DNA from: a virus
Length of the DNA: 23,902 nt
Strand: one strand, 5' to 3'
Virus record (IMG/VR): IMGVR_UViG_3300005584_000042
Span: 1-23,902 of that record
Positions 117 through 20,767 of this stretch are shown piece after piece. Below the pieces are notes generated by a model. It did no database searches, had not been told where the DNA came from, and saw nothing but the letters and a program-made list of their open reading frames with translations. Every line of letters begins with the position of its first letter. Position 1 is the stretch's first letter. Made by a program: the position numbers and the translations under genes.

Positions 117-152
117 TTTAGGTGTTCGTATGAGTTGGTTACAAATCTCTAT

Positions 153-162
153 AATAAATATC
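153..162 (-). promoter_or_regulatory. Putative phage promoter element (GATATTTATT)
   Basis: On the gene strand the site reads GATATTTATT, one of six copies of a TATATTTATA-like element found just upstream of start codons in this window. It ends 36 bases before the ATG at 116. It lies in the longest non-coding gap of the window (117-246), which otherwise holds only AT-rich sequence and no convincing hairpin. Promoter function is inferred from recurrence and position only. Confidence 0.4.
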
Positions 163-246
163 TACAAATAAAAAAAGAATATTATGAATAGCATGGGTTT
201 AAGATAGGTAGTTTGGTTAAAAATTTAATTAATATATTATGAAATC

Positions 247-960
247 TTAATCTTTATATGAATAGAATGATACTATATTATATTTAGTATCACTTTTTAC
301 CAATTCTACCTCGTGATATAGGTTAATATCACTATCCAATACAACAAAATTTGGAAAAGTTGGTTTTAATTTAATTTGTTTATTATCTTTCGTATATAGT
401 ATTAAATTACCACCGTTTTCATCATTCCATTCGGAATTTAAAAAAAACAAAAATACACATATCCTACTAATAGGTTTACCGTCATCGTGTAATTTTATTT
501 GACAACCTTCATCATAAAATTGTAAATTAGTATTTCCTTCAAATATTTTATCTCCATATTGTGTATAATAATATTTAATAAATTTTGTCTGAAACTCTTT
601 TAGAAAATCACTTCGTATAATTACATCTATATCAGGATCCCTAGCTGTCCCAAACACCCAAGTTGGGTTAAATTTACACTCATTTATTTTTTTAAGTTGA
701 TATTGGTGTGCCATTTTATACACATAATCTGCGGTTTCCAAATCAGCATCTCTAATAAGTAAATCATCATATACTATTTTTTCCGCGTATGATAAGTTAT
801 TATATGCATACCAATAATCATATTGAGAATGTCTTTTTATATTCTTGCTATCAATGAATGATTTTAATTCTACTAATTTATTAAAATCAATTAAATCTAA
901 ATAATTTTCTAAACTGTCATACAGATATCCATTATTTTTAAATTCTTCCAAAGATACCAT
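247..960 (-). CDS. 2-oxoglutarate/Fe(II)-dependent oxygenase, prolyl-4-hydroxylase-like
   Basis: A 237-residue protein whose C-terminal half looks like the 2OG-Fe(II) oxygenase double-stranded beta-helix. The likely metal triad is H158-x-D160 in KLHDDGKPISR and the distal H216 in NLYHEVELV. Between them lies RICVFLFFLN followed by ENGGNLILY, the usual core-strand pattern (roughly 'yLN..W....GGeL.ly'). The residue normally an Arg that binds 2-oxoglutarate, about ten positions after the distal His, is K226 here (SDTKYNIVSFY), a variation worth testing. The N-terminal 100 residues are not recognised. Such enzymes hydroxylate proteins, small molecules or nucleobases and are common accessory genes in T4-like marine phages; the substrate cannot be read from the sequence. 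It starts 11 bases after the stop of the fused recombination nuclease and probably shares its transcript. It has an ATG start and no Shine-Dalgarno sequence. Confidence 0.72.
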   Translation of the reverse strand: MVSLEEFKNNGYLYDSLENYLDLIDFNKLVELKSFIDSKNIKRHSQYDYWYAYNNLSYAEKIVYDDLLIRDADLETADYVYKMAHQYQLKKINECKFNPTWVFGTARDPDIDVIIRSDFLKEFQTKFIKYYYTQYGDKIFEGNTNLQFYDEGCQIKLHDDGKPISRICVFLFFLNSEWNDENGGNLILYTKDNKQIKLKPTFPNFVVLDSDINLYHEVELVKSDTKYNIVSFYSYKD

Positions 961-971
961 ATCTGTATTTA

Positions 972-3900
972 TTAATAATCAATCTTACTAAACCCATCTA
1001 TTTTCTTTATCTCTATCAGCCCATCTACAATATCTCGCATTTGTTCTAAATGTGATATCATCCAAATAAAATCAAATTGAGTTTTTAAATATTGCATCAT
1101 CATAAAAAGGGATGAAAGATTGTCAGAATCCAAAGTACCAAATCCTTCATCAATTACTAAAAAGTTTGGACGGGGTAAGTTACATATGTTAATTAGAGCT
1201 ACTCTAATAGCCAAACCACTTACGAATTTTTCCATACCACTACACATCTCTAACGGCCATTCTTGATCCTCATATACTATTTTTGCATTTATAGATTTAC
1301 CATCCACATCCATCATTACACTAAAATCCACAACCTGCGCTAATATGTTATTTATTTCATTTTCAATTACAGGTAGGGCTTTAGAAATTAACTCATACGG
1401 AATACCATCTCTCTTTACTGCATCTAAATAATAAGTATATAATCTGTTCTTTTCTTCCAACTCTTTAACTTCTTCCATTTTAGATTTAACAGTATCTATG
1501 AATGAATTTATAGTTGCGATTGAACCGTTTAATATTGATATTTTATTTGTTATATTTTTAATTTCTATTTCAATTTTGTTTTTTGATTTTTCTAATTTAG
1601 AAATTTCATTTTCAATAGAAATATTTTTTATAATTGTACTTTCATTTGCATGATACGTTTCAATATTAGTTTGTATTGATTGTAATTTATGATTTAGTAA
1701 TTCTCTTTTGGTACTAATTCCATTTATTTCTGTTTGTGTTTTTTCTTTAATTACAATACATTGTTGGTATTTTGAATTTAATTCAGTAAGCTCATTCCAC
1801 TGCTCTTCTACATCGGATATATAGGATGCTTGTTGAATTAACGATTGGTACTTATTACCCAATTGTGTTAGAATATCCACTTGCTCATCTACTTTTGTTT
1901 TTGTTTCCAACGCATCTTTTACAAATACATTAGTTATACAAAATTTACAATTAGGGTCGTACTCATGCGTTTCAAGATGTGATAATTTTTCACGATTTGA
2001 TTTTATAGATTGTTCTACTAATTCAATTTGATGCTCGGTTTCGTTTATTTCATTTTTATATTCATCCCATTCTTTTTTAGCATCCTCAATTGGTTTTCCA
2101 TTTATAACTTTAGATTGATTAATCGATTGTGATAACTCGGATATCAATACTATATATCTTAACATTTTAGATTCACTTTCAATTCTATAATCTTCCAAAG
2201 ATACAGTATCATTTTGAATTTGAGTATTCTGTCTTTCTAAATCATCTATATCCAGTTTTACATCAATATTAGATAACTCTTTATTTAAAGAAACTATACC
2301 ATCTATCAAAGTATCTTTCTCAATTACGTAGTTTTCTAATTCGGTTTCTAATTCAGTAAGCTCATTCTGTTTATTTTTTAAATCATTTCCTTTTTCTGCG
2401 AGTTCTGTTGTAAAATCTGTTCTCTTAAAATTCTTAATTAGAACTGATACCTCTTTTATATCTTCACTTGCCGTTTCATATAATTTATCAAATATATTTA
2501 ATCCCATAAATTGTGCCAATAAATCCTTCCTCTCTGATTGAGATTTATCGATGAATAGGGCATTATTTCCTTGCAGTGAAAGAGCAGTTAATACGAAATC
2601 TTCATATCTACCAACATACTGTTCAATAATTTGGTTAGTATCTCTACGTTCTGTTCCGTTTAATGAAATCATTCTATCATCATCCATTCTCCAAAACTTA
2701 ACATCTACTTTTACATTTTTACCTTTATTTACAATACTAGCGGTTCTTTCTATATAGTAATCTATTCCATCAACTTGAAAATGTAATTTACATTCAAAGT
2801 TATTTTTACGGTTGTTTAATATATTTGAGGCTTTAAATGCTCTACTACACTTATCGTATAAACAAAAAGATACTGCATCGAATAGTGATGATTTACCACT
2901 TGCGTTTGGTGCAAATAACCCAACTAACCCACCTAATTTAGTAAAATCAATTTTATTATTTTCACCATATGAAAACATATTTGAAAATGTAAATTTTATA
3001 GGTTTCCAATTGATGTTACGATACACATCATCATTTACAATTCTACTATTAACTTCTCTATTGATTATTTCTAAACCATCTAAATCACTTTGTGAAATAA
3101 AGGGCATCATTCTTTGAAGATACTCATTAATAAGTGAGTTCTGATAATTTATATCCGATGAATCTTCAAAATCTAATTTATTTAATCTATTTCCAGTTTT
3201 TAATTTAGAAAGAGAATCGGTTCTAATTATTGTAAAATCATCTACATTATAAGTTTGTTTTATTTCAGTGATTACTTTTTTAGTATCAGCAGTATCGGTG
3301 TTTGCCAATCTAACTCGCAATCTTGGATATTTTGGCATATTCGTAACTACTGGTACGTTTCCATTATCAATATCCATAGTATAATATCCATAATCATTTT
3401 GAATATCAACTTCATCATACTTAAATGTATCCAAATCCCAAACTAAAAACCCATGCTTCTCTAACGATTCTCCGAAGTTCTGCTGAACTAATGATCCTGC
3501 ATAGACTATCTTACATCCGGTTGGAGATGTTAGTTCCTGGCGTTTGTGAATATCTCCTAATAGTGCTAAATCGTACCCATCAAATATATCAGTTGTGAAA
3601 TGCCTACTACTTACGGTATATCCAATATCCGTTGTTGAATTATCAATCGGGCCGTGAAATAATGCAATCTTTTTATTTCCAAACATAGTATCCGCTTTCG
3701 GCCAATTTTCTTTTTTATCAAGAATACTAAATACTCCAAAATCAACTCCACCAATTGAATATACCTGTGTATCTCTTAAATATGTAAAGTTTGGTAGATT
3801 TAGAGCATCTACAATTGGAGTAAGAACATCCAATCTATCAGAGTTATTCATATTACAATCGTGATTACCCGTAATAAGGATAGTTTCACAATGCTTAGAA

Positions 3901-4118
3901 CATTCAGTAAATAACCAACTAATCTCTCTAACTAATTCAGGAGATAATTCTAATTTAGCGTGTGCAATATCACCTGCTAAATAGATAAGTGAATCATCCG
4001 TTCCTCTTTTACGGATTTCTTCAAACATTTTTTCAAATACAATTCGGTATTCCGTATGCCTTTTTACATTTCTAATGTGAATATCGGCAATATGAAATAT
4101 CTTTTTTAATTTATTCAT
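972..4118 (-). CDS. Fused SbcD-SbcC (T4 gp47-gp46, Mre11-Rad50-like) recombination nuclease
   Basis: One uninterrupted 1048-residue chain joins both subunits of the phage recombination endonuclease. Residues 1-300 are an Mre11/SbcD metallophosphoesterase: HIADIHIR (residues 9-16), LAGDIAH, TGNHD, FHGP and LLGDIHKRQ supply the metal-binding Asp, His and Asn residues. A linker of roughly 70 residues leads to a Rad50/SbcC ATPase beginning near residue 375. It has a Walker A-like APNASGKSS at about 403-411, long coiled-coil arms, a zinc hook CKFC at 724-727, a signature CSGMEKFVSGLAIR near 958, Walker B FLVIDEGFGTLD near 987, and an H-loop ISHLEQM. In T4 these are two adjacent genes, 47 then 46, whose complex resects DNA ends for recombination-dependent replication. 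The first Walker A glycine is Ala, and the signature has GM in place of GG. The start overlaps the primase stop by four bases (ATGA), which suggests translational coupling. Confidence 0.93.
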   Translation of the reverse strand: MNKLKKIFHIADIHIRNVKRHTEYRIVFEKMFEEIRKRGTDDSLIYLAGDIAHAKLELSPELVREISWLFTECSKHCETILITGNHDCNMNNSDRLDVLTPIVDALNLPNFTYLRDTQVYSIGGVDFGVFSILDKKENWPKADTMFGNKKIALFHGPIDNSTTDIGYTVSSRHFTTDIFDGYDLALLGDIHKRQELTSPTGCKIVYAGSLVQQNFGESLEKHGFLVWDLDTFKYDEVDIQNDYGYYTMDIDNGNVPVVTNMPKYPRLRVRLANTDTADTKKVITEIKQTYNVDDFTIIRTDSLSKLKTGNRLNKLDFEDSSDINYQNSLINEYLQRMMPFISQSDLDGLEIINREVNSRIVNDDVYRNINWKPIKFTFSNMFSYGENNKIDFTKLGGLVGLFAPNASGKSSLFDAVSFCLYDKCSRAFKASNILNNRKNNFECKLHFQVDGIDYYIERTASIVNKGKNVKVDVKFWRMDDDRMISLNGTERRDTNQIIEQYVGRYEDFVLTALSLQGNNALFIDKSQSERKDLLAQFMGLNIFDKLYETASEDIKEVSVLIKNFKRTDFTTELAEKGNDLKNKQNELTELETELENYVIEKDTLIDGIVSLNKELSNIDVKLDIDDLERQNTQIQNDTVSLEDYRIESESKMLRYIVLISELSQSINQSKVINGKPIEDAKKEWDEYKNEINETEHQIELVEQSIKSNREKLSHLETHEYDPNCKFCITNVFVKDALETKTKVDEQVDILTQLGNKYQSLIQQASYISDVEEQWNELTELNSKYQQCIVIKEKTQTEINGISTKRELLNHKLQSIQTNIETYHANESTIIKNISIENEISKLEKSKNKIEIEIKNITNKISILNGSIATINSFIDTVKSKMEEVKELEEKNRLYTYYLDAVKRDGIPYELISKALPVIENEINNILAQVVDFSVMMDVDGKSINAKIVYEDQEWPLEMCSGMEKFVSGLAIRVALINICNLPRPNFLVIDEGFGTLDSDNLSSLFMMMQYLKTQFDFIWMISHLEQMRDIVDGLIEIKKIDGFSKIDY

Positions 4119-5056
4119 AAATTATTTATTTTATTTAATAGCAACTCATCCGAAGTAAATTGAGTTGATTTATTTAATTCTTCATAAAATTTAGTATATC
4201 CAATTTCAGATGCATCTTTATCTTTTAATTGCATAAGTTTAACATTTATTCCTTGCTTTCTAAAATATTCAGAAGCCCGCAATGCCTCATTCATCGCATC
4301 ACTATCCAATGATATTACAATATTTTTAACTCCATTCATAAATATTTTCTCAACCAACTGTTTAGATGGAAATTTACCCAATAACGGTATGGCATTTCTT
4401 TTAATTGCAATTGCGTCAAATATACCTTCGCATAATATTAATTCTTCATCCCAATTTATTTGAGATTCTAAACATATTATATTTTTAGATATTGGTGGAT
4501 TTTTATATTTCATTTTCTCTTCCGGATAATATGAACGAGATATGAAATAATTTAACTGATTAGTTATATCATAAGATGGAATTATTATTCTTTTACTATA
4601 TAACCCTTCTTTGCAATATCCTATATTATATTTAATAATCTCTTTATGGGTAATTCCCCTTTGAGTTAGATAATGAATAGCGTGTTTATATTCAGGATTA
4701 AATCCTTTAGATTCGGTATTAAGTGATATAAATTCTTTTGGTAAAGAAATAAATACTTTGGTATCACTGGCTTCCTGTTGTGGGGTATAGTTTGTATCAC
4801 CGTATATGTCTCTAATAATAGAAATCGTTTTACGATCTACATCTAACTTTTTTAATAATGAGGTTAGTTTTTTACCGCCGGAATTGCAGTTCCAACAATG
4901 CCACTTTTGACTTTCTGTATTGACTTGTAGTTTTTGTTTGTGATGGTTACAAAATGGGCAGTAAAATGCTAACTCATTACCTCTTAAAATAGAATAACTA
5001 CCTAATGTATTTGATAATGTTACTACTACTCGATTTCTGTCATTTGTACTTATCAC
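4115..5056 (-). CDS. DnaG-type DNA primase (T4 gp61-like), GTG start
   Basis: A 313-residue primase. A zinc ribbon at the N-terminus has C33-x2-C36 (YCPFC) and C54-x2-C57 (HCWNC), with H38/H39 nearby. The Toprim catalytic core has the acidic E210 in LILCEGIFDA and D251-x-D253 in ISLDSDA, as in DnaG and T4 gp61. The enzyme would synthesise RNA primers for lagging-strand replication with a replicative helicase not present in this window. The length is close to T4 gp61 (about 340). The start is GTG: an in-frame TGA lies only two codons upstream, and no ATG occurs before the zinc ribbon, so GTG is the only reasonable choice. The stop overlaps the ATG of the fused nuclease (ATGA), coupling replication and recombination genes. 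A TATATTTG box ends four bases before the GTG. Confidence 0.9.
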   Translation of the reverse strand: MISTNDRNRVVVTLSNTLGSYSILRGNELAFYCPFCNHHKQKLQVNTESQKWHCWNCNSGGKKLTSLLKKLDVDRKTISIIRDIYGDTNYTPQQEASDTKVFISLPKEFISLNTESKGFNPEYKHAIHYLTQRGITHKEIIKYNIGYCKEGLYSKRIIIPSYDITNQLNYFISRSYYPEEKMKYKNPPISKNIICLESQINWDEELILCEGIFDAIAIKRNAIPLLGKFPSKQLVEKIFMNGVKNIVISLDSDAMNEALRASEYFRKQGINVKLMQLKDKDASEIGYTKFYEELNKSTQFTSDELLLNKINNL

Positions 5057-5060
5057 GTAT

Positions 5061-5068
5061 CAAATATA
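5061..5068 (-). promoter_or_regulatory. Bacteroidota-type -7 box candidate upstream of primase
   Basis: On the gene strand this reads TATATTTG, a match to the TAnnTTTG -7 box of Bacteroides/Flavobacterium housekeeping promoters. A TTTG lies about 20 bases further upstream in the 43-base gap, close to the usual -33 spacing. Only four bases separate the box from the GTG, so a transcript starting here would be leaderless or nearly so. It could also be a variant of the TATATTTATA element, or chance in AT-rich DNA. Confidence 0.35.
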
Positions 5069-5099
5069 CACATAATATTTCACATTTCCAAATAATGTA

Positions 5100-5510
5100 T
5101 TATTCAAACCAACTATCCGGTATAAACTTATCAGAATAGTTGTAGTTGTGTTTAATACACCAATCGGCATATGATGTTTTTGAAGTTTTAGTAATTTTAT
5201 TTTTAGAATTACTAAATACAAATCGTATATCTAATTCAGGATGTTGTTGTTTAATTAGTAAATGCTTCTTTCTATCCGTTGCAACAAACCTTCCTTTGGT
5301 TTCTATTATAATACCATTTGGTAATCTAAAATCCGGAGTGTAAGTGTGATTAGATGATGGTATTACGTATCCTATTTTTTCTGATTCGTATTTTACTGTA
5401 ACTCCTTTACTTTCAATTTGAGTTGATATATTTTCTTCAAGCCCAGACTTAAACCCATATTTTCTCGCAACCCATTTAGAGTTGTTTAATTTTATAACCC
5501 GCTTAGCCAT
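5100..5510 (-). CDS. T7 endonuclease I-like Holliday junction resolvase (gp3 family)
   Basis: A 136-residue protein with clear similarity to bacteriophage T7 endonuclease I along nearly its whole length: GFKSGLEENIS, YVIPSSNHTYTPDFRLPNG, IETKGRF, DRKKHLLIKQQHPELDIRFVF and a C-terminal SDKFIPDSWF. It would cut branched DNA (Holliday junctions and replication or recombination intermediates) as a domain-swapped dimer. Against the T7 sequence as I remember it, the catalytic residues E20, D55, E65 and K67 correspond to E25, D60, E70 and K72 here. The position of T7 E35 is K40; E42 two residues on might substitute. It lies three bases after the 69-residue gene and just upstream of primase, in a recombination/replication cassette. 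T4 itself uses the unrelated endonuclease VII for this job. The start is ATG with no Shine-Dalgarno sequence. Confidence 0.93.
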   Translation of the reverse strand: MAKRVIKLNNSKWVARKYGFKSGLEENISTQIESKGVTVKYESEKIGYVIPSSNHTYTPDFRLPNGIIIETKGRFVATDRKKHLLIKQQHPELDIRFVFSNSKNKITKTSKTSYADWCIKHNYNYSDKFIPDSWFE

Positions 5511-5513
5511 TAC

Positions 5514-5723
5514 TTAACGTTTTATAGTATCGGAATATTTTACATTACTTAATTCACCGCCTCTGCCAGTTTTGAATTTGGTAGCAGTTAATACCTGCTC
5601 ATCTACTTTTTTTAAATCATTAGTAGTGTATGGTGTTTTTAATGCATCGGATGCATCTTTACTGATTTTATCAGTTCCCAATTGTTTTTGAGATGCTTTG
5701 TATAAATCTAATATTTTTGACAT
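5514..5723 (-). CDS. Small hypothetical protein (69 aa)
   Basis: A 69-residue, Lys/Asp/Thr-rich, probably helical and soluble protein beginning MSKILDLYKASQKQLGTDK. It has no membrane segment, signal peptide or Cys. I do not recognise a family. It begins at an ATG that follows a copy of the TATATTTATA element after 16 bases (5740-5750) and ends three bases before the endonuclease I start. It is therefore the first gene of the recombination/replication cassette, or the last small gene of the virion block. The tight spacing and the upstream element support a real gene. A small structural or regulatory role is possible but not shown. Confidence 0.7.
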   Translation of the reverse strand: MSKILDLYKASQKQLGTDKISKDASDALKTPYTTNDLKKVDEQVLTATKFKTGRGGELSNVKYSDTIKR

Positions 5724-5739
5724 AATTGTTATTGTTTAG

Positions 5740-5750
5740 TATAAATATAA
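5740..5750 (-). promoter_or_regulatory. Putative phage promoter element (TTATATTTATA)
   Basis: On the gene strand this reads TTATATTTATA, followed by CTAAAC, 16 bases before the ATG of the 69-residue gene. It lies in the 28-base gap after the stop of the 402-residue gene. A TTG occurs 19 bases upstream of the box. It would drive the 69-residue gene, endonuclease I, primase and fused nuclease as one unit. The inference rests on recurrence of the element in this window. Confidence 0.5.
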
Positions 5751-5751
5751 G

Positions 5752-6960
5752 TTATGTATCAAAACGTACAATAAAGTTTATAGGAAAATCTTGTTGTGTT
5801 TTAATAGGTTGTGGTAATTTTGCTACTGCAACTAAATCACAATTATCATCGTATAATCCTATGGTGGTAATAAATGGTGATAAGAATGAACCGGTTGAAT
5901 CTATTGAACCACTAACATCAATGTGTTCAAATCCAGCGTATAAATTAGATTGTACTGATGATGTATATCTATAATCAATAACACTTCCATTTTCTAATAT
6001 TGATCGTTTTCTAATATATTTTACACCAGGATTTGTAGTAATGCGTTTAATAGTTCCATCGGTATCAATTGATGTATCTCGTTCTTCTCCTACCGTAACA
6101 ATTGCTGATGGGTTTTGTGAAATATTAAATTCATCTGGATCGGTTATTAACAAATATTCGTTTTCGTAGATTGTTTGAGTTGATTTATATGCAATATTCC
6201 AATTTGTAAGTAATAGATCATCTATACCACGTGTTAATACCACCAATCCTTGTGTATAAAATACATTTCCAATTTTATTAAGTCCCGCTGCTCCTAATAA
6301 AAATGGCATATTTTCTACAATAAGAATACCACTTTCAATATCAGCACTAGTTATGTTTAATTCGTATGTTACTGATTGGTATATTAATGTTAATATATTA
6401 TTTTCTAAATCAACTGCAATGGTAGGAGAACTTACTAATGATGCGGAATATTCTACAAATTCAATATCTGTAAAATTAAATATAGATGATTCTGTATCTA
6501 TTCTACTAATTAGTATAGTGTCACCCGTTAGACTAATTAAATTACCATACCCATCATCATTAAATACCACATTGTCATTGGTAAATGCTACCGAATTCTT
6601 TTTTATACCCTCACCTACATATTTTTGTGGAATTGATATAACTTTAGCAGATCCACTTAAAAATCTATCTTTGGTATTACTTTCTATATTATAACCAATT
6701 GATATATCTCCAAATCTTAAAAATGGATTATTTTCATTTCCATTATAAAACATTGAACGTAACTGCCCATATAGTGCATTTGTATCATAGGATGAACCGG
6801 ATAATATACCACCACTGATTTCATTTGTTAAAACATTTGTATAATCACCCGTAATAGCCTCTAATACCGATACTTCCGGTGAAGTATTATCGAATTCCCA
6901 TTCTTTATATGCCTTAAAAGGTCTTATACTAATATCCGATTTTGGTATTCTTTTTAACAT
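5752..6960 (-). CDS. Virion structural protein sharing a C-terminal module with its neighbour
   Basis: A 402-residue, beta-rich, low-Cys protein with Ser/Gly-Ser patches (LSGSSYD, FLSGSAK) typical of phage tail or baseplate proteins. It has no signal or membrane segment. Its C-terminal part, from about residue 230 (GNVFYTQGLVVLTRG, then TIYENEYLLITDPDEFNISQNP, ending in ITTIGLYDDNCDLVAVAKLPQPI and a short strand), matches the end of the 413-residue protein encoded just upstream at 7033-8274. The two are probably paralogous or carry the same module. The N-terminal 230 residues differ. I recall similar modules in uncultured marine T4-like phages, without a defined function. The gene stands alone between a terminator (6981-7010) with a promoter-like element (6967-6976) and the small gene at 5514. 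ATG start; the leader from that element is only six bases. Confidence 0.75.
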   Translation of the reverse strand: MLKRIPKSDISIRPFKAYKEWEFDNTSPEVSVLEAITGDYTNVLTNEISGGILSGSSYDTNALYGQLRSMFYNGNENNPFLRFGDISIGYNIESNTKDRFLSGSAKVISIPQKYVGEGIKKNSVAFTNDNVVFNDDGYGNLISLTGDTILISRIDTESSIFNFTDIEFVEYSASLVSSPTIAVDLENNILTLIYQSVTYELNITSADIESGILIVENMPFLLGAAGLNKIGNVFYTQGLVVLTRGIDDLLLTNWNIAYKSTQTIYENEYLLITDPDEFNISQNPSAIVTVGEERDTSIDTDGTIKRITTNPGVKYIRKRSILENGSVIDYRYTSSVQSNLYAGFEHIDVSGSIDSTGSFLSPFITTIGLYDDNCDLVAVAKLPQPIKTQQDFPINFIVRFDT

Positions 6961-6966: not shown

Positions 6967-6976
6967 TATAAATATC
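6967..6976 (-). promoter_or_regulatory. Putative phage promoter element (GATATTTATA)
   Basis: Reads GATATTTATA on the gene strand, six bases before the ATG at 6960 and a few bases past the terminator hairpin of the upstream gene. A terminator followed directly by this element is the arrangement expected of a new transcription unit, and this is the best positional support for calling the element a promoter. The very short spacer implies a leaderless or nearly leaderless message. Confidence 0.5.
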
Positions 6977-6980: not shown

Positions 6981-7010
6981 AAACTAAAAACCCACCAAAA
7001 AGGTGGGTTA
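6981..7010 (-). terminator. Intrinsic terminator after the 413-residue virion gene
   Basis: On the minus strand, AACCCACC (7009-7002) pairs perfectly with GGTGGGTT (6996-6989) around a five-base TTTTT loop. It runs into a T-rich tail (TTTAGTTT). It begins 23 bases after the stop of the gene at 7033. It is the only GC-rich hairpin I found in a non-coding gap, and it separates the large virion block from the downstream genes. On the opposite strand the hairpin lacks a good T tract, so it should act in the gene direction. Confidence 0.8.
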
Positions 7011-8282: not shown

Positions 8283-8906
8283 TTATTGAACGTATGTTAC
8301 GGTTACTGGAATTGTTTGTGAACCACCTGTTTCGTTACCATAAACAGTTATTGTTGTTCTGATAGTTGAAGTTAAAGATGGGTTTGGTATAAATTTAAAG
8401 GTCAATCCTTTTGCAATTGCAGCTGTTGCAGATACATCATCTCCAATGAATATCGGAACTGAACCTACATCGGATGTTACACCTTCTCCAATTATATCAC
8501 CTGCGTTTTTATTAGATAATACAATTGTATATCCTAATCTCCTATTTCCGGCAGGTGATGTGGTTGGTGATAATGCAACTTCACCACTTTTTTGATTTAC
8601 GGCTACATTTGGTATACCAAATTCCACAACAGGGATTCTTGTTGTATTTTTTGGTAAAGTTACCAATTTATATTTCATTACCTGCGTTTCATCAGGTGAT
8701 GCTTCTAATATTGGCATGTTTTTAATCGCTGCATCATAGTATGCTGATCCAAGCGGATGAGCGGGTTCATATAAAGAATAATCAATCTCATCATCTGCTA
8801 AAGCAAATTGAGTGATGTTTAATCCTTGTCCAGCTGCTAATTTTTCTCTACCTTTTTTGGTAAGAATAGCATCAACTGTTAATTCGGTGTTACTTAAATA
8901 TCCCAT
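8283..8906 (-). CDS. Conserved phage structural protein, function unknown (207 aa)
   Basis: A 207-residue protein beginning MGYLSNTELTVDAILTKKG. It continues with ITQFALADDEIDYSLYEP, then HPLGSAYYDAAIKNMPILEA and MKYKLVTLP. I recall this N-terminal pattern in many T4-like marine and uncultured Mediterranean phage genomes, where it is annotated only as hypothetical or virion structural. The C-terminal half is beta-rich (TIRTTITVYG, IPVTVTYVQ) and could be a small beta-sandwich. It has no Cys and no membrane or signal segment. It lies between the 1743-residue protein and the 413-residue virion protein, with a promoter-like element 20 bases before its ATG and its stop eight bases before the next start. 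This placement supports a late tail or baseplate role. The molecular function is unknown. Confidence 0.8.
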   Translation of the reverse strand: MGYLSNTELTVDAILTKKGREKLAAGQGLNITQFALADDEIDYSLYEPAHPLGSAYYDAAIKNMPILEASPDETQVMKYKLVTLPKNTTRIPVVEFGIPNVAVNQKSGEVALSPTTSPAGNRRLGYTIVLSNKNAGDIIGEGVTSDVGSVPIFIGDDVSATAAIAKGLTFKFIPNPSLTSTIRTTITVYGNETGGSQTIPVTVTYVQ

Positions 8907-8926: not shown

Positions 8927-8936
8927 AATAAATATA
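8927..8936 (-). promoter_or_regulatory. Putative phage promoter element (TATATTTATT)
   Basis: On the gene strand this reads TATATTTATT, followed by AACAAACG, 20 bases before the ATG of the 207-residue gene. It lies in the 47-base gap after the 1743-residue gene. The AACAAAC extension is shared with the copies at 14195 and, more loosely, 20758. Promoter role is inferred. Confidence 0.5.
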
Positions 8937-8953: not shown

Positions 8954-11900
8954 TTATTCTACTTCCAAAATTGGTTCACTAGCATCTCTACCTGCTTTAT
9001 TTACTTTTAATATATTTGGATTTGTTGCAAATACTTCAACCGGAGATGACCCATCCAATGTAGTTGCACTCGTATTCTTCGTACCGTAGTAAAAACTATT
9101 CTGTAATCCTCTCGTCAAATCACTAGTATTTCTATAATGTGATTTTAAATATCCATTTATAGGAACTACTTCGACAATTTTACCACCAACTGATGGTATG
9201 ACAGAGCCACTAAACGGTTGAATTGTTAATTTTGTTTCATAATATGTTTGAATTCCTAATTCTGTATATGATCCAGATGCACTACCAGTTAAATATGTAA
9301 ATTCTCTAGTATTCTGCTCTTTTATTAAAGATACTCTAACTCTTTCTTTTTTACGATTACCTCTCGCATCATAGTATGTGCGTATTGCCGAACCATTTTG
9401 TCCATAAATACCAAATCCTAAAACTTCATAATCGTTTTGTCCAACTATTGTATTAGAATTTATTAAATCAATTTCACTTATTATAGTTGAATTATTTAAA
9501 TTAGTGTTAATTAACGCATCGTTAAGGGTACTATATTCGAATGTGATGCGTGTAGTATCACTTGCAGTTATTTCCGAATTATATTGATAACTATTTGCAA
9601 TTAGTTTTTCAACTGCAGGATTAGTTATAGTAGTCTCATACTGATTATTTTCGCCACTTAAATCATATACGGTATTTGTATAAATTTGAGTTTCAATTTT
9701 GTCCGTTTCACCGGATAAATTAGTTTCTTTACTAATAGTTGCATCCCATTGAGAATATTCACCAGATGGTTTCTTATGTTGAACTTTACTTCTTTCTAAA
9801 AAATGTGGCTCTATTAGTAAACCAGTAGTTGCTTTAACTCTTGCTGGTAACATTTGTTTAATATCCTCAAACATAGATTTCTCATACAGTTTGATTAAAT
9901 TAATATATTGATAAATATCCCTACCATCAAATCTTTCAAAGTAATACTTTCTTAAATCATCTAATGTGGTATATTTTTCTTTATATAAATCAGATGGATT
10001 ACCTATGTAATTATCTAAATTAAACCCACCTAACGATTTTGCAATATCTAAATTTAATTCTTTTGTAGGTGAGAAAAATAATCCAACCCGATTAGAATCC
10101 GGTGGTGATTGATCAAATGCCTTTTTAGTTGCTCTACTTTTATAAGATAAATCAACACCACCACTTACATCGTTTCCACTAAAATCAGTTTGAGATTCAA
10201 ATCTAACTTTATTTGTAGAAAATCTAGATGAACCTATGTTCGGTATTTCAAGTGTAACACTTCTATCAATTGCTTCAAATTGGTATGGATATGATGGAGA
10301 TGATGTAAATCCAATTACAGATGCACTGATTGGTGCGTTTATGGTTGATGTTACATTTACAATACTTCCAGTTTCTTCAAATTGATTTCTTACAAAACCT
10401 TTAGGATAAAAAATATTATTTGCAACATTTATAAAAGAAGATGTACCATTTGTACCATATAAATTTTTAGGATATTCAAAATCCAAACGGAAATATAAAT
10501 CGGAAGTTGATGATGAATAATTATTACCATTAATCATTTCCGGGTACGATACGTGCTCAAAAAATCTATCTTTATCTAATGGAGTAGACCATAAACGGAA
10601 TTCATCTAATGAACCTGTATAATTATTACCAATACGTATAGTAGAACCACTATCCCAATTTGATTGAGTTAGTTTTAATGTACCACTATATTCAAAGATA
10701 GTTCTTTCTTTTTGAAATTGTTTTAAGTTCAAAGACATGGTTGCATCTGCCCCACTACCAACTGTTCTACTAACCTCTATACCAAAAAATCTATTATTAA
10801 ATATTGGCAATAAATTAGATGTAATAGTTTGTATATTAGTTGATTCTGAAATGGATAATTTAACTGTACCATATTTACTATCAATAGAACCACTTAATGC
10901 TACGTTCCATCCACTTCCTGATATTAGTTGATACGCACCTGCATAATTAGGTTTTACAAATAATTCAATCGTATCAGGCTTTCTATTAGTATCTGTGTTT
11001 TTCCATTCTAATTCGATTGATGAACCACTATTCATATTTAATACAGTGGTCACTACATCGGTTATTAGTTTACCTTTACTTTCATCGTTAATTTCAGGAC
11101 CACCAAACTCTAATATAGATAAGTTAGATGATGGTATTCCGTAACAACTTAATAATGCATATATACCCCTTCTACTACCTTTATGTTTTAATAGGTATGG
11201 TAGATTGTTTATAATCCTCCTCCATACTTCATTCGTTCTTTGTTTAGCCGGATTGGTTTCTTTAACATTTGAGTTTGAATCCACACCAAATGTGTAATTC
11301 CATAAACTAGAATCTGCTGATAAATTTTTAGCATCCCAACTCAATGATTTAAGTGTATCGAACAATAATTTATCAGATATTCCGTTTTTAGATTTATACC
11401 CTAATCCTCTACTTTTTTCTATTGATTTAGTATGATAATAAATATTATCAAAATGCTGCCCAACCATTGATAAAAATAATAACAAACTTGCATTATTGCC
11501 ATCATTTACAATATATTGTGGTATATTATTTTGTACCCAATTTTGATTATTATTATCGAAATTTTCAGCTAATGTAATAATAGTATCATACCATCCCGTT
11601 CCATAATCATTTGTTACTAATGGTGAAGAACTATCCACTCTAACAGAAGCACTGTATGGCCAAGTTATAGATGATGAATTGTATAAACTATAAGATGATG
11701 AATTAAATAATGTCTTTTCAAACCCATCAAATCCATTTATTAACTGTGATTTTTTTGATTTTTGTCTTTCTAATTCCTGAACTGATGCCGGTGAATTTAT
11801 GAAACCAGTATCAAGCAAATCAGTACTTGCACTTAATGCAAGATTTTCATATAATTCTATTAACTGTACCTTATAAACAAAGTTATCAACTCTTTCTTTT

Positions 11901-14185
11901 GCAGAACTAAAGTGAACAAAATTATTCCATAAGTATCCATTCTCTGCATCTGAACCACTGATATATTCTATATTTAAATCATCGGTATCAACAAATGATG
12001 AACTTAAATACGTTGCTACTAATTTTTCAGAAGTTGTTGTTTCTGCTGAAAATATTATATTATCGAGTGATTCAAAGTTTGTAGATTGCCCTTTTACAAA
12101 ATCAACTTCTATATTAAAATTTGGTCCTTTTAACGGTGGACACTTTAAATCATCTTGCTCTGTTAATACAATGGTTTCAATTAAAGGATTACTCATTAAT
12201 TTTGTAATCCAAAATGTTGAGTTTTCCGATACGTTAGCAGGTAGTGGTGTGTATAATTTTAATATTATTGAGTTTACAATATCATCCGTTTTAACTATGA
12301 CGTTTCCTAAATTATCTTCGGATTTTTTTGATAAAGTAAAATCATCAGTTTCCCATGATGAAATTATAATTTGCTCATTATTATTAAAATTGGCTAAATG
12401 AGTTAAATACTTACTCTCACTTTCAGGTTCAATAATAGATAATGATTGTGCAAATGCATCGTATATTACTTTTTCTAAAATAGTTTCATCTATTTCAAAG
12501 TTTGAAAATATTAGATTGGTTGTAACTTCATAATCATTGCCAACCAATGGCTCTATACCACTATTGTTATACGGTCGTATTATTAACGTTATGGAATTAG
12601 AACCTACCCAATTTGGATATGTATCTCTTAATTTTTTAAGATTTATGTTTACATTTCCATTTTCTGGTTGATTTTGAAATAACGGAGTTATTGAATTATC
12701 TCTTAATTTTAAAAATATATCAACACTCGATGCTGCAAATGATGAATATGCTACTGTATAATCAATATTACCATCAGAAAATGATGGAATATCTATATTT
12801 TCCGCGTATGTTATTTCGGTTATAGATGGGTAATCATTTATTGATGTATATGTTAATATGCACTCAACACGTTCACCACTACCATAATTATCACTATATG
12901 GTACAACTATAATTTTTTTAGAACCGTAAACCTTATTAAAATCTTTTTCAAAATATATTGATACCTGTTTATCAGATGCAGGTACTCTTAAAGTTTTTTC
13001 AGGTGATAAATAAACCAATACATAATCCGCGTTTTGCGTTAAAAATGGTATTATTGTAATCTTTTCGGTATCGGACTCCTTTACTCTAATATCATATTGT
13101 ATTTGATTAAGAGTTATAGATGGTTCTTCAAATTTTATTTCTTTTTCTAAAACAATAGCAACTGCAATACCACCTGATGATAATATGTTAGCAGGTATCT
13201 TAAATGAATTGAGTGCAGTGTTCCATTTACTGTAATCGCCGTACTGTTGAGTTAATGCGTTTACTTTGGTAGTATAGTAGTAGTTTAATACACTATATCC
13301 ATTTGGTATATTACTATTTATTGTAAATGCAATTTCTGCATCTTTTATTATAGAGTTTTCTAATTGCTTGTTATCGGTATTACCATCTAATAACGTTATA
13401 GTATCACTATCAACTACACTATCTTTATAAAAAATTTGATAGTTTAATTGCACCAAATCTCCTAATTCATTTGAAAAGTTGGAGGTAAATGCTACTTCGT
13501 AATTTATTGTTTGATTATCAGATATTACAGGTGTAACATTTGGTGTGGGTTGTGTTTCAAAATTTAATGTGTATGCACCATATACTCTATCGTACGGAAT
13601 TGTACTATCTTGCTGATAAGTATTTCCATTCCAAACATATTTTTTAACTATTAATTGCTCATCATATTGATATTGAATAGCACTTATTGACTCTGCTATA
13701 TTATAGGTGTAGTTAAAATCATAATAATTACCAAAAGCAACCATATTAGCAACTGGTAGTATTGTAGGATCAAATGCAGGTCTTATGGTTTCTGCTATGA
13801 TTAATGTATCTTTATATTTACTTACTATTTCAACTTCATAATAATATAATGATTTAACATTTAATGATTCAAATGTGTATACTCTTTTAGAACCAAATGT
13901 AGTAGATGGTGAGTATGTAATATTAATGGAATTTCCAAAACCTTTAGATACACCATCTTCAAAAAATTCACCAATTTGATTATCATCTTCTGCTATTAAA
14001 TTTATAGTAAGTGATTTTTCCGAATCGGCTATATAACTTGGAGGTATAAATAATGGATTGGTTGGTACGGGCGGTATATATGTTGGATTACCACTATTTC
14101 CTAAATCTACAAATGGATCATATTGCCCCGTACCATTGTATGGTGAATTTTGATCGTAATTATATAAATCGTCGTATTGTCCCAT
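8954..14185 (-). CDS. Giant baseplate/tail protein with gpI-like and LamG-like regions (1743 aa)
   Basis: A 1743-residue protein, the largest in the window. The N-terminal 50 residues are rich in Tyr, Asn, Gly and Pro. Residues about 60-700 look like a string of beta-sandwich (Fn3/Ig-like) repeats. Around 983-1021, VWRRIINNLPYLLKHKGSRR with IYALLSCYGIPSS resembles the P2 gpI/T4 gp7-related segment found in large baseplate proteins. Near 1180-1215, GSLDEFRLWSTPLD is a typical LamG/concanavalin-like signature. MFEDIKQMLPARVKATTG (about 1430-1450) and the C-terminal FYYGTKNTSATTLDG with VEVFATNPNILKV are stretches I recall from uncultured T4-like phages. By position downstream of gp25 and gp6 it is a candidate gp7-type wedge component, with sugar- or surface-binding ability from the LamG domain. 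T4 gp7 is about 1030 residues, so this is much larger. Exact equivalence to gp7 is inferred. Confidence 0.8.
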   Translation of the reverse strand: MGQYDDLYNYDQNSPYNGTGQYDPFVDLGNSGNPTYIPPVPTNPLFIPPSYIADSEKSLTINLIAEDDNQIGEFFEDGVSKGFGNSINITYSPSTTFGSKRVYTFESLNVKSLYYYEVEIVSKYKDTLIIAETIRPAFDPTILPVANMVAFGNYYDFNYTYNIAESISAIQYQYDEQLIVKKYVWNGNTYQQDSTIPYDRVYGAYTLNFETQPTPNVTPVISDNQTINYEVAFTSNFSNELGDLVQLNYQIFYKDSVVDSDTITLLDGNTDNKQLENSIIKDAEIAFTINSNIPNGYSVLNYYYTTKVNALTQQYGDYSKWNTALNSFKIPANILSSGGIAVAIVLEKEIKFEEPSITLNQIQYDIRVKESDTEKITIIPFLTQNADYVLVYLSPEKTLRVPASDKQVSIYFEKDFNKVYGSKKIIVVPYSDNYGSGERVECILTYTSINDYPSITEITYAENIDIPSFSDGNIDYTVAYSSFAASSVDIFLKLRDNSITPLFQNQPENGNVNINLKKLRDTYPNWVGSNSITLIIRPYNNSGIEPLVGNDYEVTTNLIFSNFEIDETILEKVIYDAFAQSLSIIEPESESKYLTHLANFNNNEQIIISSWETDDFTLSKKSEDNLGNVIVKTDDIVNSIILKLYTPLPANVSENSTFWITKLMSNPLIETIVLTEQDDLKCPPLKGPNFNIEVDFVKGQSTNFESLDNIIFSAETTTSEKLVATYLSSSFVDTDDLNIEYISGSDAENGYLWNNFVHFSSAKERVDNFVYKVQLIELYENLALSASTDLLDTGFINSPASVQELERQKSKKSQLINGFDGFEKTLFNSSSYSLYNSSSITWPYSASVRVDSSSPLVTNDYGTGWYDTIITLAENFDNNNQNWVQNNIPQYIVNDGNNASLLLFLSMVGQHFDNIYYHTKSIEKSRGLGYKSKNGISDKLLFDTLKSLSWDAKNLSADSSLWNYTFGVDSNSNVKETNPAKQRTNEVWRRIINNLPYLLKHKGSRRGIYALLSCYGIPSSNLSILEFGGPEINDESKGKLITDVVTTVLNMNSGSSIELEWKNTDTNRKPDTIELFVKPNYAGAYQLISGSGWNVALSGSIDSKYGTVKLSISESTNIQTITSNLLPIFNNRFFGIEVSRTVGSGADATMSLNLKQFQKERTIFEYSGTLKLTQSNWDSGSTIRIGNNYTGSLDEFRLWSTPLDKDRFFEHVSYPEMINGNNYSSSTSDLYFRLDFEYPKNLYGTNGTSSFINVANNIFYPKGFVRNQFEETGSIVNVTSTINAPISASVIGFTSSPSYPYQFEAIDRSVTLEIPNIGSSRFSTNKVRFESQTDFSGNDVSGGVDLSYKSRATKKAFDQSPPDSNRVGLFFSPTKELNLDIAKSLGGFNLDNYIGNPSDLYKEKYTTLDDLRKYYFERFDGRDIYQYINLIKLYEKSMFEDIKQMLPARVKATTGLLIEPHFLERSKVQHKKPSGEYSQWDATISKETNLSGETDKIETQIYTNTVYDLSGENNQYETTITNPAVEKLIANSYQYNSEITASDTTRITFEYSTLNDALINTNLNNSTIISEIDLINSNTIVGQNDYEVLGFGIYGQNGSAIRTYYDARGNRKKERVRVSLIKEQNTREFTYLTGSASGSYTELGIQTYYETKLTIQPFSGSVIPSVGGKIVEVVPINGYLKSHYRNTSDLTRGLQNSFYYGTKNTSATTLDGSSPVEVFATNPNILKVNKAGRDASEPILEVE

Positions 14186-14194
14186 TTAGTTTGT

Positions 14195-14204
14195 TATAAA
14201 TATA
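14195..14204 (-). promoter_or_regulatory. Putative phage promoter element (TATATTTATA)
   Basis: Reads TATATTTATA then ACAAACTAA on the gene strand, nine bases before the ATG of the 1743-residue gene and directly after the stop codon of the preceding gene. It is one of the best matches to the consensus. Promoter role is inferred from recurrence. Confidence 0.5.
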
Positions 14205-15569: not shown

Positions 15570-15574
15570 AATCG

Positions 15575-16693: not shown

Positions 16694-16694
16694 T

Positions 16695-17768
16695 TTATAC
16701 TATTTCAAATACTGATTTATCATCAATTATATATTCTATTCCACTTTGTATAATTTTTAATTTTAATAAGTAAGTTCTACTAATTGGTAATGTATGTAAA
16801 TTCATAGTAAAATAACTACCACTAACATCACAACTTATTTTTGTATAATCTCCAAATGGATATATTATCTCCTTTGTTACATAATCTTCTAATTGATAAT
16901 AAGATGAACCAGATGGTAAATAACTCGTATTATCATAATCAAAAGTTGCACTAAATGTCCGTAGTGGGTATAATTCTCTACCTTTTACACGTATCTTAAC
17001 TTTACCATTCTGTGGATATTTTGATTTTAAATTAGAATAAACTATTTTAAATTTTTCTTCTGGTATTACTGACAATGAACCGGTTATAAAAGAACTATCA
17101 TCCCAAACTAATTCTAATTTTGGTTCATATATAGTATGTGTTTCTTTTGAAAAGAATTTTAATACACCATAATCTAATGTATTTTCTTCGTTTTCTAAAC
17201 TGTGATGCATTATAAATCCATTATTTGGCAATGAACCACTAACCCATTTGTGTACTATATTAGTAACATTCATTCTAACATCATCTAATTCATAATTATA
17301 TGATTGGGATGCCATAGATGCCGTATACCAAGTACCTCCTTCTGCATTTGCTGAACCTGTTGTTCCTGCTGCAAAAACGGCAGTACCACCTATTACATTA
17401 TCTTGCCAACTATCTACACCATTTCTATATTTCCAACTTACCCCATCCGTACTAACATTATCAAATTTAGTACCAGTTCCCATATTCCAACTTTGAGAAA
17501 CCGCATTTGCATATATTGTATATTCTAATGGAATCTCTTCTGAATTTGCAGAACGTAATACTAAATAAGTTGACCAACTTCCGGAACCTATTGATTGTAT
17601 TTCGGATTTAATTGAACCCGTATCAAATTTAATTAAAGCTCGAGATATATCTTTAATAGAACCATAATACAGTTTACCTACTTCTAAAATTTCATCTCTT
17701 CCGGCATTTTGATCCGGTTGTTGAAGATATATACTTGCGTCAAATGATGATGTGAATAATTTATGCAT
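16695..17768 (-). CDS. DNRLRE-like beta-sandwich virion protein
   Basis: A 357-residue protein. The N-terminal 230 residues resemble the DNRLRE/carbohydrate-binding-like sandwich: DASIYLQQPDQNAGRDEILEV, then SRALIKFDTGSIKSE and VLRSANSEEIPLEYTIY. Later come WNMGTGTKFDN, VTNIVHKWVSG, and NGFIMHHS (the usual 'NyGflLk' position). Residues 245-357 form a second beta domain (KVKIRVKGRELYPLRTF). The fold often mediates surface or glycan contact, so a baseplate periphery or host-recognition role is plausible but unproven. Its ATG overlaps the gp6 stop by one base (TAATG), indicating translational coupling. It is the only gene with a strong Shine-Dalgarno match (GGGGAGGG about nine bases upstream), which also encodes the last gp6 residues (KGRAL). 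Confidence 0.77.
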   Translation of the reverse strand: MHKLFTSSFDASIYLQQPDQNAGRDEILEVGKLYYGSIKDISRALIKFDTGSIKSEIQSIGSGSWSTYLVLRSANSEEIPLEYTIYANAVSQSWNMGTGTKFDNVSTDGVSWKYRNGVDSWQDNVIGGTAVFAAGTTGSANAEGGTWYTASMASQSYNYELDDVRMNVTNIVHKWVSGSLPNNGFIMHHSLENEENTLDYGVLKFFSKETHTIYEPKLELVWDDSSFITGSLSVIPEEKFKIVYSNLKSKYPQNGKVKIRVKGRELYPLRTFSATFDYDNTSYLPSGSSYYQLEDYVTKEIIYPFGDYTKISCDVSGSYFTMNLHTLPISRTYLLKLKIIQSGIEYIIDDKSVFEIV

Positions 17769-19795
17769 TACAATGCCCTCCCCTTAATGTCTTTATTTGG
17801 ATACTTAACTTCAAAAACACACGGATCAATTGATGGGTATACCATTTTACCAACCGTTGCTTCGTCAATATTATAACGATTTTCAGAATAGTTTTCCCCA
17901 TTATCAGATTTACATATGTTATATACCTTTACAGATGGTACACTCATTACACCTTCTACATTTGCGAGAAGTAATTCTACTTCTGAAATGTTTATTGGCT
18001 TATTAAACGTCCATTTATCTATATTAAAGTAACTTTGTATTTCTGTCAAACACGCGGTTAATACCTCTCTTTTATTATAATTAGAATAAACTATTATTTC
18101 AAAATCTACTCCAATATTTACAACAAACCCATCTATAATGTTTACACCATCCGTCAACATTCTATATTCACTTATATAGGTTTTTAAATTTTGTTTAACT
18201 GCGGAATTTAATTGTGTAAGTTTTTTATCACCATCGTAGGCGAGTACATACATATTTATTGCGAATGGATTATTTATTTCAGATATTGATGTTTTCTTTT
18301 GAGATAGATATTTTACTAATTCAGTTTGTATTTCAGATTTAGATTTATCTTTTAATCCTTCTACTACACCAACAAATTCTGCTATATTTTTTGGAGATGC
18401 TAATATGGATGATGGTGAATTATTATCAATCTCCCCATCAGGACTTACATATACTTTTGCAACACTACCATATCTTTCTGGCATTGATAATGCACGTACT
18501 ATATAATCTTGCCTAGTTACTGCTCTATTTTGAGAACCAAATGTTGATAATGCGTTTTGTCTAATTTCTTCAATTGATTCACTATCTCTACCACCAACTG
18601 CTGCTTCTAAATTTTCTACTGCGATTGATTGCTTTATAGTACTATACAATGCTTGATTTGTTACTGATAATAAATCTTCCTCAAATTCTATTCTACGTAT
18701 TGATGTCAAATCACCAACATTTACATTTGATTCAATCCCACCACCTATTAAGTATTTTACTTTTAATGTTTTATTTACAGGAGTTATTCCAAATGTATTT
18801 GTTTTTAAAAAATTAGATGGATCAATACCATCATTTAATCTTTTTATTGAGTTGGCTAATCCTAATCCTATATTTTTAGTATTTGGTAATATTAGTTCAT
18901 CTGCCAAATTAGAATCACCACTTCCAAACTGCAAATCCATTGTGTTATCTGAATTAACTTTTACAGAATATCGGTATGGTACTTTTTGTACTTCTAAAAT
19001 ATATGGAACATTTGTCAAATTTGAACTTAATTGCCCGTTTTCTTCTAAATTAGGTTGTTCTACAAATACACTTTCTTGTGCAAGATACGGAACTTCGTAC
19101 CATTTAACGTAATCGTCATCGGATGTTACGGATGTAACCTCTATAACATTAATATCATTTATGGTTACAAACGGATATTCTACATAATCACCAAACGTAA
19201 ATTCAGTTTCTCTTTCTGTTGCAGATATTGCTTTTATTTTTTTTGTTATTAAATAAAAGGTAGGTTCACCTGATGTGGTATCTCTCTCATATACATCAAT
19301 TTCTCTTTCAGTATTATTTGCAAAATCAACACTATCAACTGTTCTAAATATAATATTAGAATTACTAGTAGATGTTACTTCTAATCCATCTTTTAGTTTA
19401 AGATAATAAGTTTCATCAGGTTCATTAGTTACACCTACTCCTGTCGCTGGAACTAATTGATATACAGTTAATGTTGTTACCGCAGGTGTTGTTACTTTGG
19501 GTTTATATCCCATAGTTTGTGCCAGTGCAACTACATTTTTTCTTTCTGTTGCATAGGATAACAATGATTCTTTTAACTGTGTATCTTGATAAAATGTTAA
19601 AATATCACCAATTGCAGCCGCTTGTTCAACAAATACCATACCAGGCGATGAATCGCTGAAATCTGAATATGTATTGGGGTAATACGTTTTTGTAAAATCA
19701 ATAAGAGTTTGTTTTAAGGAAGCAAAATCTTTACCAACATAATTTATGTTTTTATTATTACTACCAAAACTTTTATTTATAGGTTTTATCGCCAT
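17768..19795 (-). CDS. gp6: Baseplate wedge protein, T4 gp6-like (Baseplate_J)
   Basis: A 675-residue protein, close to the 660 residues of T4 gp6. The N-terminus carries a typical gp6 signature: NINYVGKDFASLKQTLIDF, then YYPNTYSDFSDSSPGMVF, IGDILTFYQDTQLKESLL, and ALAQTMGYKP (residues about 17-100). Around residues 405-435, SIEEIRQNALSTFGSQNRAV then TRQDYIVRALS is the Baseplate_J-like core shared with P2 gpJ and T4 gp6. The C-terminus ends KGRAL. It forms the wedge dimers that ring the hub and join the iris of the contractile baseplate. It follows gp25 by four bases, the same neighbour pairing seen in other contractile-tail systems, and overlaps the next gene by one base. ATG start. An exact T4-type late sequence TATAAATA lies in the gene direction at 19812-19805, inside the gp25 3' end; it may be chance. 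Confidence 0.93.
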   Translation of the reverse strand: MAIKPINKSFGSNNKNINYVGKDFASLKQTLIDFTKTYYPNTYSDFSDSSPGMVFVEQAAAIGDILTFYQDTQLKESLLSYATERKNVVALAQTMGYKPKVTTPAVTTLTVYQLVPATGVGVTNEPDETYYLKLKDGLEVTSTSNSNIIFRTVDSVDFANNTEREIDVYERDTTSGEPTFYLITKKIKAISATERETEFTFGDYVEYPFVTINDINVIEVTSVTSDDDYVKWYEVPYLAQESVFVEQPNLEENGQLSSNLTNVPYILEVQKVPYRYSVKVNSDNTMDLQFGSGDSNLADELILPNTKNIGLGLANSIKRLNDGIDPSNFLKTNTFGITPVNKTLKVKYLIGGGIESNVNVGDLTSIRRIEFEEDLLSVTNQALYSTIKQSIAVENLEAAVGGRDSESIEEIRQNALSTFGSQNRAVTRQDYIVRALSMPERYGSVAKVYVSPDGEIDNNSPSSILASPKNIAEFVGVVEGLKDKSKSEIQTELVKYLSQKKTSISEINNPFAINMYVLAYDGDKKLTQLNSAVKQNLKTYISEYRMLTDGVNIIDGFVVNIGVDFEIIVYSNYNKREVLTACLTEIQSYFNIDKWTFNKPINISEVELLLANVEGVMSVPSVKVYNICKSDNGENYSENRYNIDEATVGKMVYPSIDPCVFEVKYPNKDIKGRAL

Positions 19796-19799
19796 TGAA

Positions 19800-20237
19800 T
19801 TAGTTATTTATACTTATGTTTAATGTTTCTGACAAACTTGGATTAGAAACTAATGAAAATTTCACATCTAAATTTATATTATTTACATCAATATCAGTTT
19901 CATCGTAATCAAATATAATTTCATCTATATTTAGATATGGCAACCAATTACTAACGGCATCCAATATTGTATTTTCTATTTGAGTTTCAATTTGTCCTGG
20001 TATGATTTGTTCAAATAATAATAACCATACATCGCATCCAAATTCAGGATTCATAACTCTTTCTCCCTTTTTTGTTAGAATTAAATTTTTTAAATTATCT
20101 TTAGCTTGACTTAATGTTGTATAATTTACAGGAAAAATACCATTATTATCAGATATACGGTTTATACCTATACCTAATATTTTGTAATTATTCTCTGTTA
20201 AGTCGCTTACATTAACCTTACCTAATTCTATTGCCAT
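19800..20237 (-). CDS. gp25: Baseplate wedge protein, gp25-like (GPW/gp25 family)
   Basis: A 145-residue protein of the GPW/gp25 family. The hallmark is LILTKKGERVMNPEFGCDVW at about residues 51-70, followed by LLFEQIIPGQIETQIENTI, then a beta segment ending in NPSLSETLNISINN. The usual family length is 110-150 residues. gp25 sits in the inner baseplate wedge and helps start sheath assembly; despite older naming it is not expected to be a lysozyme. It is followed after four bases by gp6 and preceded after six bases by a 163-residue unknown. ATG start with an A-rich leader (TTTTAATAAAAA) and no Shine-Dalgarno sequence. Confidence 0.94.
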   Translation of the reverse strand: MAIELGKVNVSDLTENNYKILGIGINRISDNNGIFPVNYTTLSQAKDNLKNLILTKKGERVMNPEFGCDVWLLLFEQIIPGQIETQIENTILDAVSNWLPYLNIDEIIFDYDETDIDVNNINLDVKFSLVSNPSLSETLNISINN

Positions 20238-20243
20238 TTTTTA

Positions 20244-20735
20244 TTAAAATCTTTTAACCAATTCGGTATAATCTCTATTTAATGCTTTTGTTATTACATC
20301 TACTTCCGAATTACCAGTAGTAGGTATACTACCATTGTGTAAATCAGTTCCTCTAAAATCCATAGTTTGCCATTCATTTTCAACACCTATTTCTGGATAA
20401 AGACCATCTAATACACTCGGTGTTACACCTTCATTTCTATGCGCAGATGTGAATGGTTGTGTCATATTAAGAATCTCATTTATCATTGGGTCTTTTGTAA
20501 ATTCCCGTTTTGTTCGTTGAGTTGGTACTACGGTTTGCTTTCTAATAGGAGCAGTAGTATTTACTTCCGTCATTTCTTTTAATGATGGTACTTCTTTTTT
20601 TCTTTGTGAGTTTAATGTAACTGCGCCAGATTTAATAAGTTTTACAAGTTGTTCTGTTACTTGCTCTTTTACTTGAGTTTTCACTTCATTCTTCACAACT
20701 TCTTTAATAAGGCTTAATAAAATGTCTGATTTCAT
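20244..20735 (-). CDS. Small helical phage protein, unknown (163 aa)
   Basis: A 163-residue protein. The first 40 residues are an amphipathic Lys/Glu/Val-rich helix (LIKEVVKNEVKTQVKEQVTE) likely to form a short coiled coil. The middle is basic, Thr/Pro-rich and probably disordered (RKQTVVPTQRTKREFTKD). The end contains a small conserved-looking motif, NSEVDVITKALNRDYTELVK. It has no membrane or signal segment. It lies directly before gp25 and after a 44-base gap with a promoter-like element (20758-20767), so it begins a baseplate transcription unit. A tail-assembly chaperone or minor baseplate protein is possible. I do not recognise the family. Confidence 0.7.
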   Translation of the reverse strand: MKSDILLSLIKEVVKNEVKTQVKEQVTEQLVKLIKSGAVTLNSQRKKEVPSLKEMTEVNTTAPIRKQTVVPTQRTKREFTKDPMINEILNMTQPFTSAHRNEGVTPSVLDGLYPEIGVENEWQTMDFRGTDLHNGSIPTTGNSEVDVITKALNRDYTELVKRF

Positions 20736-20757
20736 AAAAAATTGTTGTTTTGTTAGT

Positions 20758-20767
20758 TATAAATATA
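20758..20767 (-). promoter_or_regulatory. Putative phage promoter element (TATATTTATA)
   Basis: Reads TATATTTATA followed by ACTAACAAAAC on the gene strand, 22 bases before the ATG at 20735. It is the only long gap (44 bases) inside the packed baseplate block. It would start a unit beginning with the 163-residue protein, gp25 and gp6. Inference from recurrence; no -33 element is visible. Confidence 0.5.

Follow-up and report, generated by a model that had tools for sequence, protein, structure and literature searches.

Background

In phage T4, late transcription depends on the promoter TATAAATA together with gp55, gp33 and gp45 (PMC2988020, PMC7892883). Some T4-like phages have diverged late promoters, such as CTAAATA in Aeh1, and the authors of that work proposed that the motif shifted along with a diverged gp55 (PMC1524935). 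Bacteroidota sigma-A promoters have the -33 box TTTG and the -7 box TAHHTTTG; in F. johnsoniae, the final G of the -7 box is near-invariant and little of a -33 box is visible (PMC6847099). Fresh water and sea water commonly contain Far-T4 phages, in which the T4 core genes of transcription regulation were not detected (Roux et al. 2015, PMC4360716). The element studied here, ATATTTAT(A/T), was not found described in open-access PMC papers.

The element resembles the T4 late promoter in being a short -10-like sequence with no -35/-33 box, placed before structural genes that are presumably late. Its candidate reader may have a sigma-region-2 fold. The element differs from T4 in its sense consensus, which is Bacteroidota -7-like and contains TATTTATA, the reverse complement of TATAAATA. 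The sigma-like protein is also longer than gp55, and its C-terminal part may be a helix-turn-helix. As in Aeh1, the late motif appears to have shifted with a diverged gp55-like protein. Here, however, the motif looks like a promoter box from another host phylum, and no match of the sigma-like protein to the gp55 profile was found. With Bacteroidota sigma-A promoters (PMC6847099), the element shares the TA-n-n-TTT core and A/T-rich surroundings, but it has no -33 box, and A replaces the near-invariant final G of the host -7 box.

The Far-T4 phage RM378 of Rhodothermus encodes p020, which is weakly related to the sigma-like protein (hmmsearch 27 bits), and has ATATTTAAA before its divergent sheath and tube genes. 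Unlike here, that motif ends in AAA, and RM378 has a second annotated sigma factor, p144 (L257:41329-41928). The p144 protein matches the sigma-like family weakly, in the region-2 part.

Our main reading is a T4-type late promoter, written in Bacteroidota grammar and read in gene direction by a gp55-like sigma factor, at a rough probability of 75% or lower. That ATATTTAT(A/T) is a promoter is highly probable. Such a reading would give relatives of Far-T4 phages a concrete late promoter along with a candidate sigma factor. It would also be a case in which a phage promoter code obeys the promoter rules of another host phylum.

Six elements in the window

The window, i.e., the whole stretch of DNA analysed, has 23,902 nt (positions 1 to 23,902 of IMGVR_UViG_3300005584_000042) and 29.4% G+C, and all of its long genes lie on the minus strand. 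It is best explained as belonging to the structural region of a large Far-T4-like phage (T4 superfamily) that infects Bacteroidota. A gp6-like baseplate wedge protein (17768..19795), a gp25-like baseplate wedge protein (19800..20237) and, at the window edge, a carbamoyltransferase fragment (23359..23902) are encoded on this strand. The window also encodes gp46/47-like, primase and endonuclease proteins.

Six elements were located, all on the minus strand, and their distances were measured to the ATG in gene orientation. The first, GATATTTATT (153..162), is placed 36 nt before the start of a gene running off the left end. The second, TATATTTATA (5740..5749), precedes a 69-aa gene (5514-5723) by 16 nt, and the ortholog of this gene in relative G002 is also preceded by the element. 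The third, GATATTTATA (6967..6976), lies 6 nt before a 402-aa gene (5752-6960), so its transcript could be nearly leaderless; matching sites exist in relatives G001 and G002. Directly upstream of it, a terminator-like hairpin was read from the sequence (6986..7007, minus strand; CCCACC-TTTTT-GGTGGG, then TTTTT). The remaining three are TATATTTATT (8927..8936), 20 nt before a 207-aa gene (8283-8906), TATATTTATA (14195..14204), 9 nt before a 1743-aa gene (8954-14185), and TATATTTATA (20758..20767), 22 nt before a 163-aa gene (20244-20735) that stands at the head of the gp25/gp6 baseplate genes. Compared with TATATTTATA, three sites match exactly, two differ at one base and one at two. The core ATATTTAT is invariant across all six, with ATATTTAT(A/T) as the extended form.

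An earlier note on this DNA had reported six copies on the gene strand, and its positions and distances to the start codons were borne out, with one correction, i.e., 5740-5749 and not 5750. Its remark that one copy directly follows a terminator agrees with the hairpin-plus-T sequence before 6967-6976. The note had also seen three or four of the copies continue as A-C-[AT]-A-A-C. This continuation is weak, with no more than an A-rich stretch following over 61 non-redundant sites.

Enrichment and conservation in relatives

With one mismatch allowed, the whole-window count was at chance level (30 found, 26.9 expected); the signal therefore lies in place and strand. In the sense gaps of the window, ATATTTAT occurred 6 times against 0.34 expected from dinucleotide shuffles of those gaps, and none of 5000 shuffles reached 6. 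Exact TATATTTATA occurred 3 times there against 0.04 expected (0/5000 shuffles). Over the whole window, ATATTTAT was found at 9 sense and 2 antisense positions.

No DNA-level match of the window was found among phage records. With the gp6-like protein as the query, the nearest records were Microcystis phage Mel-JY01, Flavobacterium phage immuto and LR756508 (38-40% identity). A search of viral contigs gave 80 related contigs, three of which are parts of records of 199-245 kb, here called G001, G002 and G003. The 8-mer ranking described below covered these three near-full relatives and two cultured phages, immuto and Mel-JY01. In the 80 contigs, the sense gaps (14 kb) held 19 copies of TATATTTATA and the sense coding sequence (888 kb) none, a count that includes three re-fetched copies of the window. 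A 209-kb relative had the element in 38 gaps in sense and 3 in antisense, and its 199 kb of coding sequence held 11 copies.

Every 8-mer was ranked by upstream gaps versus coding sequence, with no motif named beforehand. The top upstream 8-mer in each of the five phages was ATATTTAT or TATTTATA, mainly on the sense strand. In a second set, i.e., 80 contigs around immuto-like sigma-like genes, CTATTTAT ranked highest, followed closely by TATATTTA and TATTTATA. The T4 structural region served as a control, and the same procedure yielded TATAAATA. Among its 56 distinct base permutations, ATATTTAT ranked first in four of the five phages and third in immuto, where the two words above it overlap and belong to the same motif.

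In 5/5 deeply diverged phages, whose most distant pairs share about 20-60% protein identity, the element stands before the tail-tube gene gp19, a prohead-region gene and the ortholog of the 207-aa gene.

Probable late element and host-type promoters

Other genes of the same phages are headed by host-type Bacteroidota promoters. In G002 and G003 these are TTTGG-N19-TATATTTG, in Mel-JY01 CTTGCAT...TTTCGTAnnTTTGTA and in immuto GTTGCC...TATATTTAGGTAT. By their sequence, the G002/G003 and Mel-JY01 sites fit the Bacteroidota -33/-7 consensus of PMC6847099, and the immuto site appears as a variant of it with A at the last -7 position. The window holds a contrast site of this type (5061..5092, minus strand) before the primase gene, which has a GTG start at 5056. 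It comprises a -33 TTTG (5089-5092), a 20-nt spacer and the -7 box TATATTTG (5061-5068).

Alternatively, the element could be a host sigma-A -7 box in degenerate form (TAHHTTT-A); the host holoenzyme would then act on it together with a phage activator, as happens in T4 middle transcription, and no phage sigma factor would be involved. TATATTTA and TATATTTG are one base apart, and the -33 box of F. johnsoniae promoters is itself little visible (PMC6847099). Moreover, 20/60 sites with a -33 TTTG, a third, also carry A for the final G, and host sigma-A may therefore read some of the sites. However, host promoters keep the final G almost without exception (PMC6847099), and a predicted gp55-like protein is encoded by the phages. 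No upstream box was found in the 61 pooled non-redundant late sites; host-type sites show TTTGG. The two promoter types also separate by gene block. Compared with host-type promoters, the element clusters in the structural blocks, at 22:5 against 2:13 in G002 (p=4e-5) and 20:11 against 0:16 in immuto (p=9e-6); the blocks were set after the site lists had been seen, and these p-values are descriptive. The host-box explanation is unlikely next to the main reading.

Position relative to genes and strand

The element appears to mark transcription-unit starts, being placed at gaps where such a unit can begin, and it is rare before operon-internal genes. In G001, it was found before 0/128 genes with gaps <15 nt versus 21/34 genes with gaps of 30-59 nt. 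From the end of the element to the ATG, the distance was most often 20-24 nt, and it ranged from <5 to >60 nt. Some copies stand directly after terminator-like hairpins.

These placements bear on the idea of an RNA-level element, i.e., a translation enhancer or RNA processing site in the leader. The usual closeness to start codons would suit it, and translation in Flavobacterium is tuned by the bases next to the initiation codon (PMC6847099). The varying distance, the rarity before operon-internal genes and the copies next to hairpins argue against it and leave it very improbable next to a promoter function.

In the five phages, sense to antisense counts were 38:3, 25:2, 23:3, 18:1 and 15:1. 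Action in the opposite direction, i.e., an antisense or two-sided promoter like T4 TATAAATA, has in its favor only that TATAAATA lies within the reverse complement of the element; it is hardly credible given the sense-only placement before genes in five phages and the fact that antisense transcription would re-enter the upstream gene.

The earlier note had offered a phage-specific late promoter or a two-sided element. The former is supported by gap-specific and sense-strand-specific placement and by concentration in structural-gene blocks, and the latter is not supported, given the strand ratios. Two of its proposed checks were run. Strand-aware counts of genes versus gaps showed the element to be specific to gaps and to the sense strand in the window and relatives, and motif discovery on upstream regions, done as 8-mer ranking in relatives, put ATATTTAT or TATTTATA first. 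Its worry that the T4 consensus TATAAATA points against the genes is gone. The sense consensus is not TATAAATA but ATATTTAT, TATAAATA being that of the T4 control, and, read in sense, the element looks like a Bacteroidota -7 box (TAHHTTTG) in which another base stands for the last G. As for the reader, the note had suggested a diverged gp55-like factor, and the protein described below makes this probable, with the link between protein and element being our inference.

Candidate sigma-like protein

A conserved protein of ~230 aa resembling gp55 was picked out by inspection of conserved proteins. It is present in 27 related contigs, in immuto and Mel-JY01, and in at least 600 IMG/VR stretches. 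Contig L006 is 97-98% identical to the window and carries the gene (L006:2803-3495) directly upstream of the carbamoyltransferase gene; placed from L006, the gene ends ~1.2 kb beyond the right edge of the window. Its operon begins at a host-type site with -33 TTTGG and -7-like TATATTAG.

In profile comparison, the alignment of the protein with gp55 was collinear and weak (hhalign P=0.004; probability under 10%). Pfam Sigma70_r2 gave sub-threshold matches in two members (E 0.007, 0.025). No Pfam family scored above cut-off, PHROG gave nothing informative, and PDB sequence searches with the sigma-like alignments gave chance matches only. In the seven relatives G001-G007, the gp55 profile phrog_234 had no match at E <= 1, and profile phrog_12791 had none. 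The Mel-JY01 protein as the query found no match among viral contigs.

The N-domain was modelled by AF2 with pLDDT 86 and pTM 0.76. Most of the 50 PDB matches listed for this model are sigma factors. Among these 50, gp55 (7d7c) had the best query TM-score (0.63, prob 0.95), and a region-2 fragment (5h6x) had a higher target-normalised score than 7d7c. No Foldseek match with E <= 0.001 was present among the matches listed. In the model, the N-terminal part of the protein looks like a diverged sigma region 2 with a predicted gp55-like fold.

The 484-kb phage LR756508 has the sigma-like protein (42%), but its sheath and tube genes are not preceded by ATATTTAT within 80 nt; therefore, protein and motif can be uncoupled.

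Proposed mechanism and sliding clamp

In the preferred reading, ATATTTAT(A/T) would be the -7/-10-like element of late promoters, acting in gene direction, with its lateness inferred from the type of genes it precedes. Early and other genes would use host-type promoters (-33 TTTG/TTG, -7 TAHHTTTG) read by host sigma-A, and one of these would head the operon with the phage sigma-like gene. The sigma-like protein, presumably the reader of the element, would then bring host RNA polymerase to ATATTTAT, which has neither a -33 box nor the near-invariant final G of the host. By analogy with host promoters, transcription would start ~4-6 nt downstream of the element, and the resulting mRNAs would have short A-rich leaders or be nearly leaderless.

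Clamp loaders of the gp44 type were found in G001-G003 and Mel-JY01, and none was detected in immuto and RM378. The gp45 profile (phrog_223) had no match in G001-G007; G002 encodes a weak PCNA-like candidate protein. A broader and rather doubtful proposal is that a widespread phage group uses a two-part late sigma factor, in which a gp55-like region 2 is joined to a C-terminal part that binds DNA itself, with a target in Bacteroidota -7 grammar, and that some members, e.g., immuto, would carry out late transcription without a T4-type sliding clamp.

Putative early promoters of immuto and Mel-JY01

In immuto (L085:17000-26500), about twenty similar early promoters, GTTGCC-N-TATATTTAGGTAT, were observed, mostly before small genes of unknown function. 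Many of them are followed by CAATAATTAAAAC.

Phage Mel-JY01 (PP395634.1) was deposited as a cyanobacterial phage, and no paper on it was found. Some ten or more early promoters of Bacteroidota type (TTG ... TAnnTTTG) are present in its genome. Judging from these sites, its true host may be a Bacteroidota bacterium in a mixed culture.
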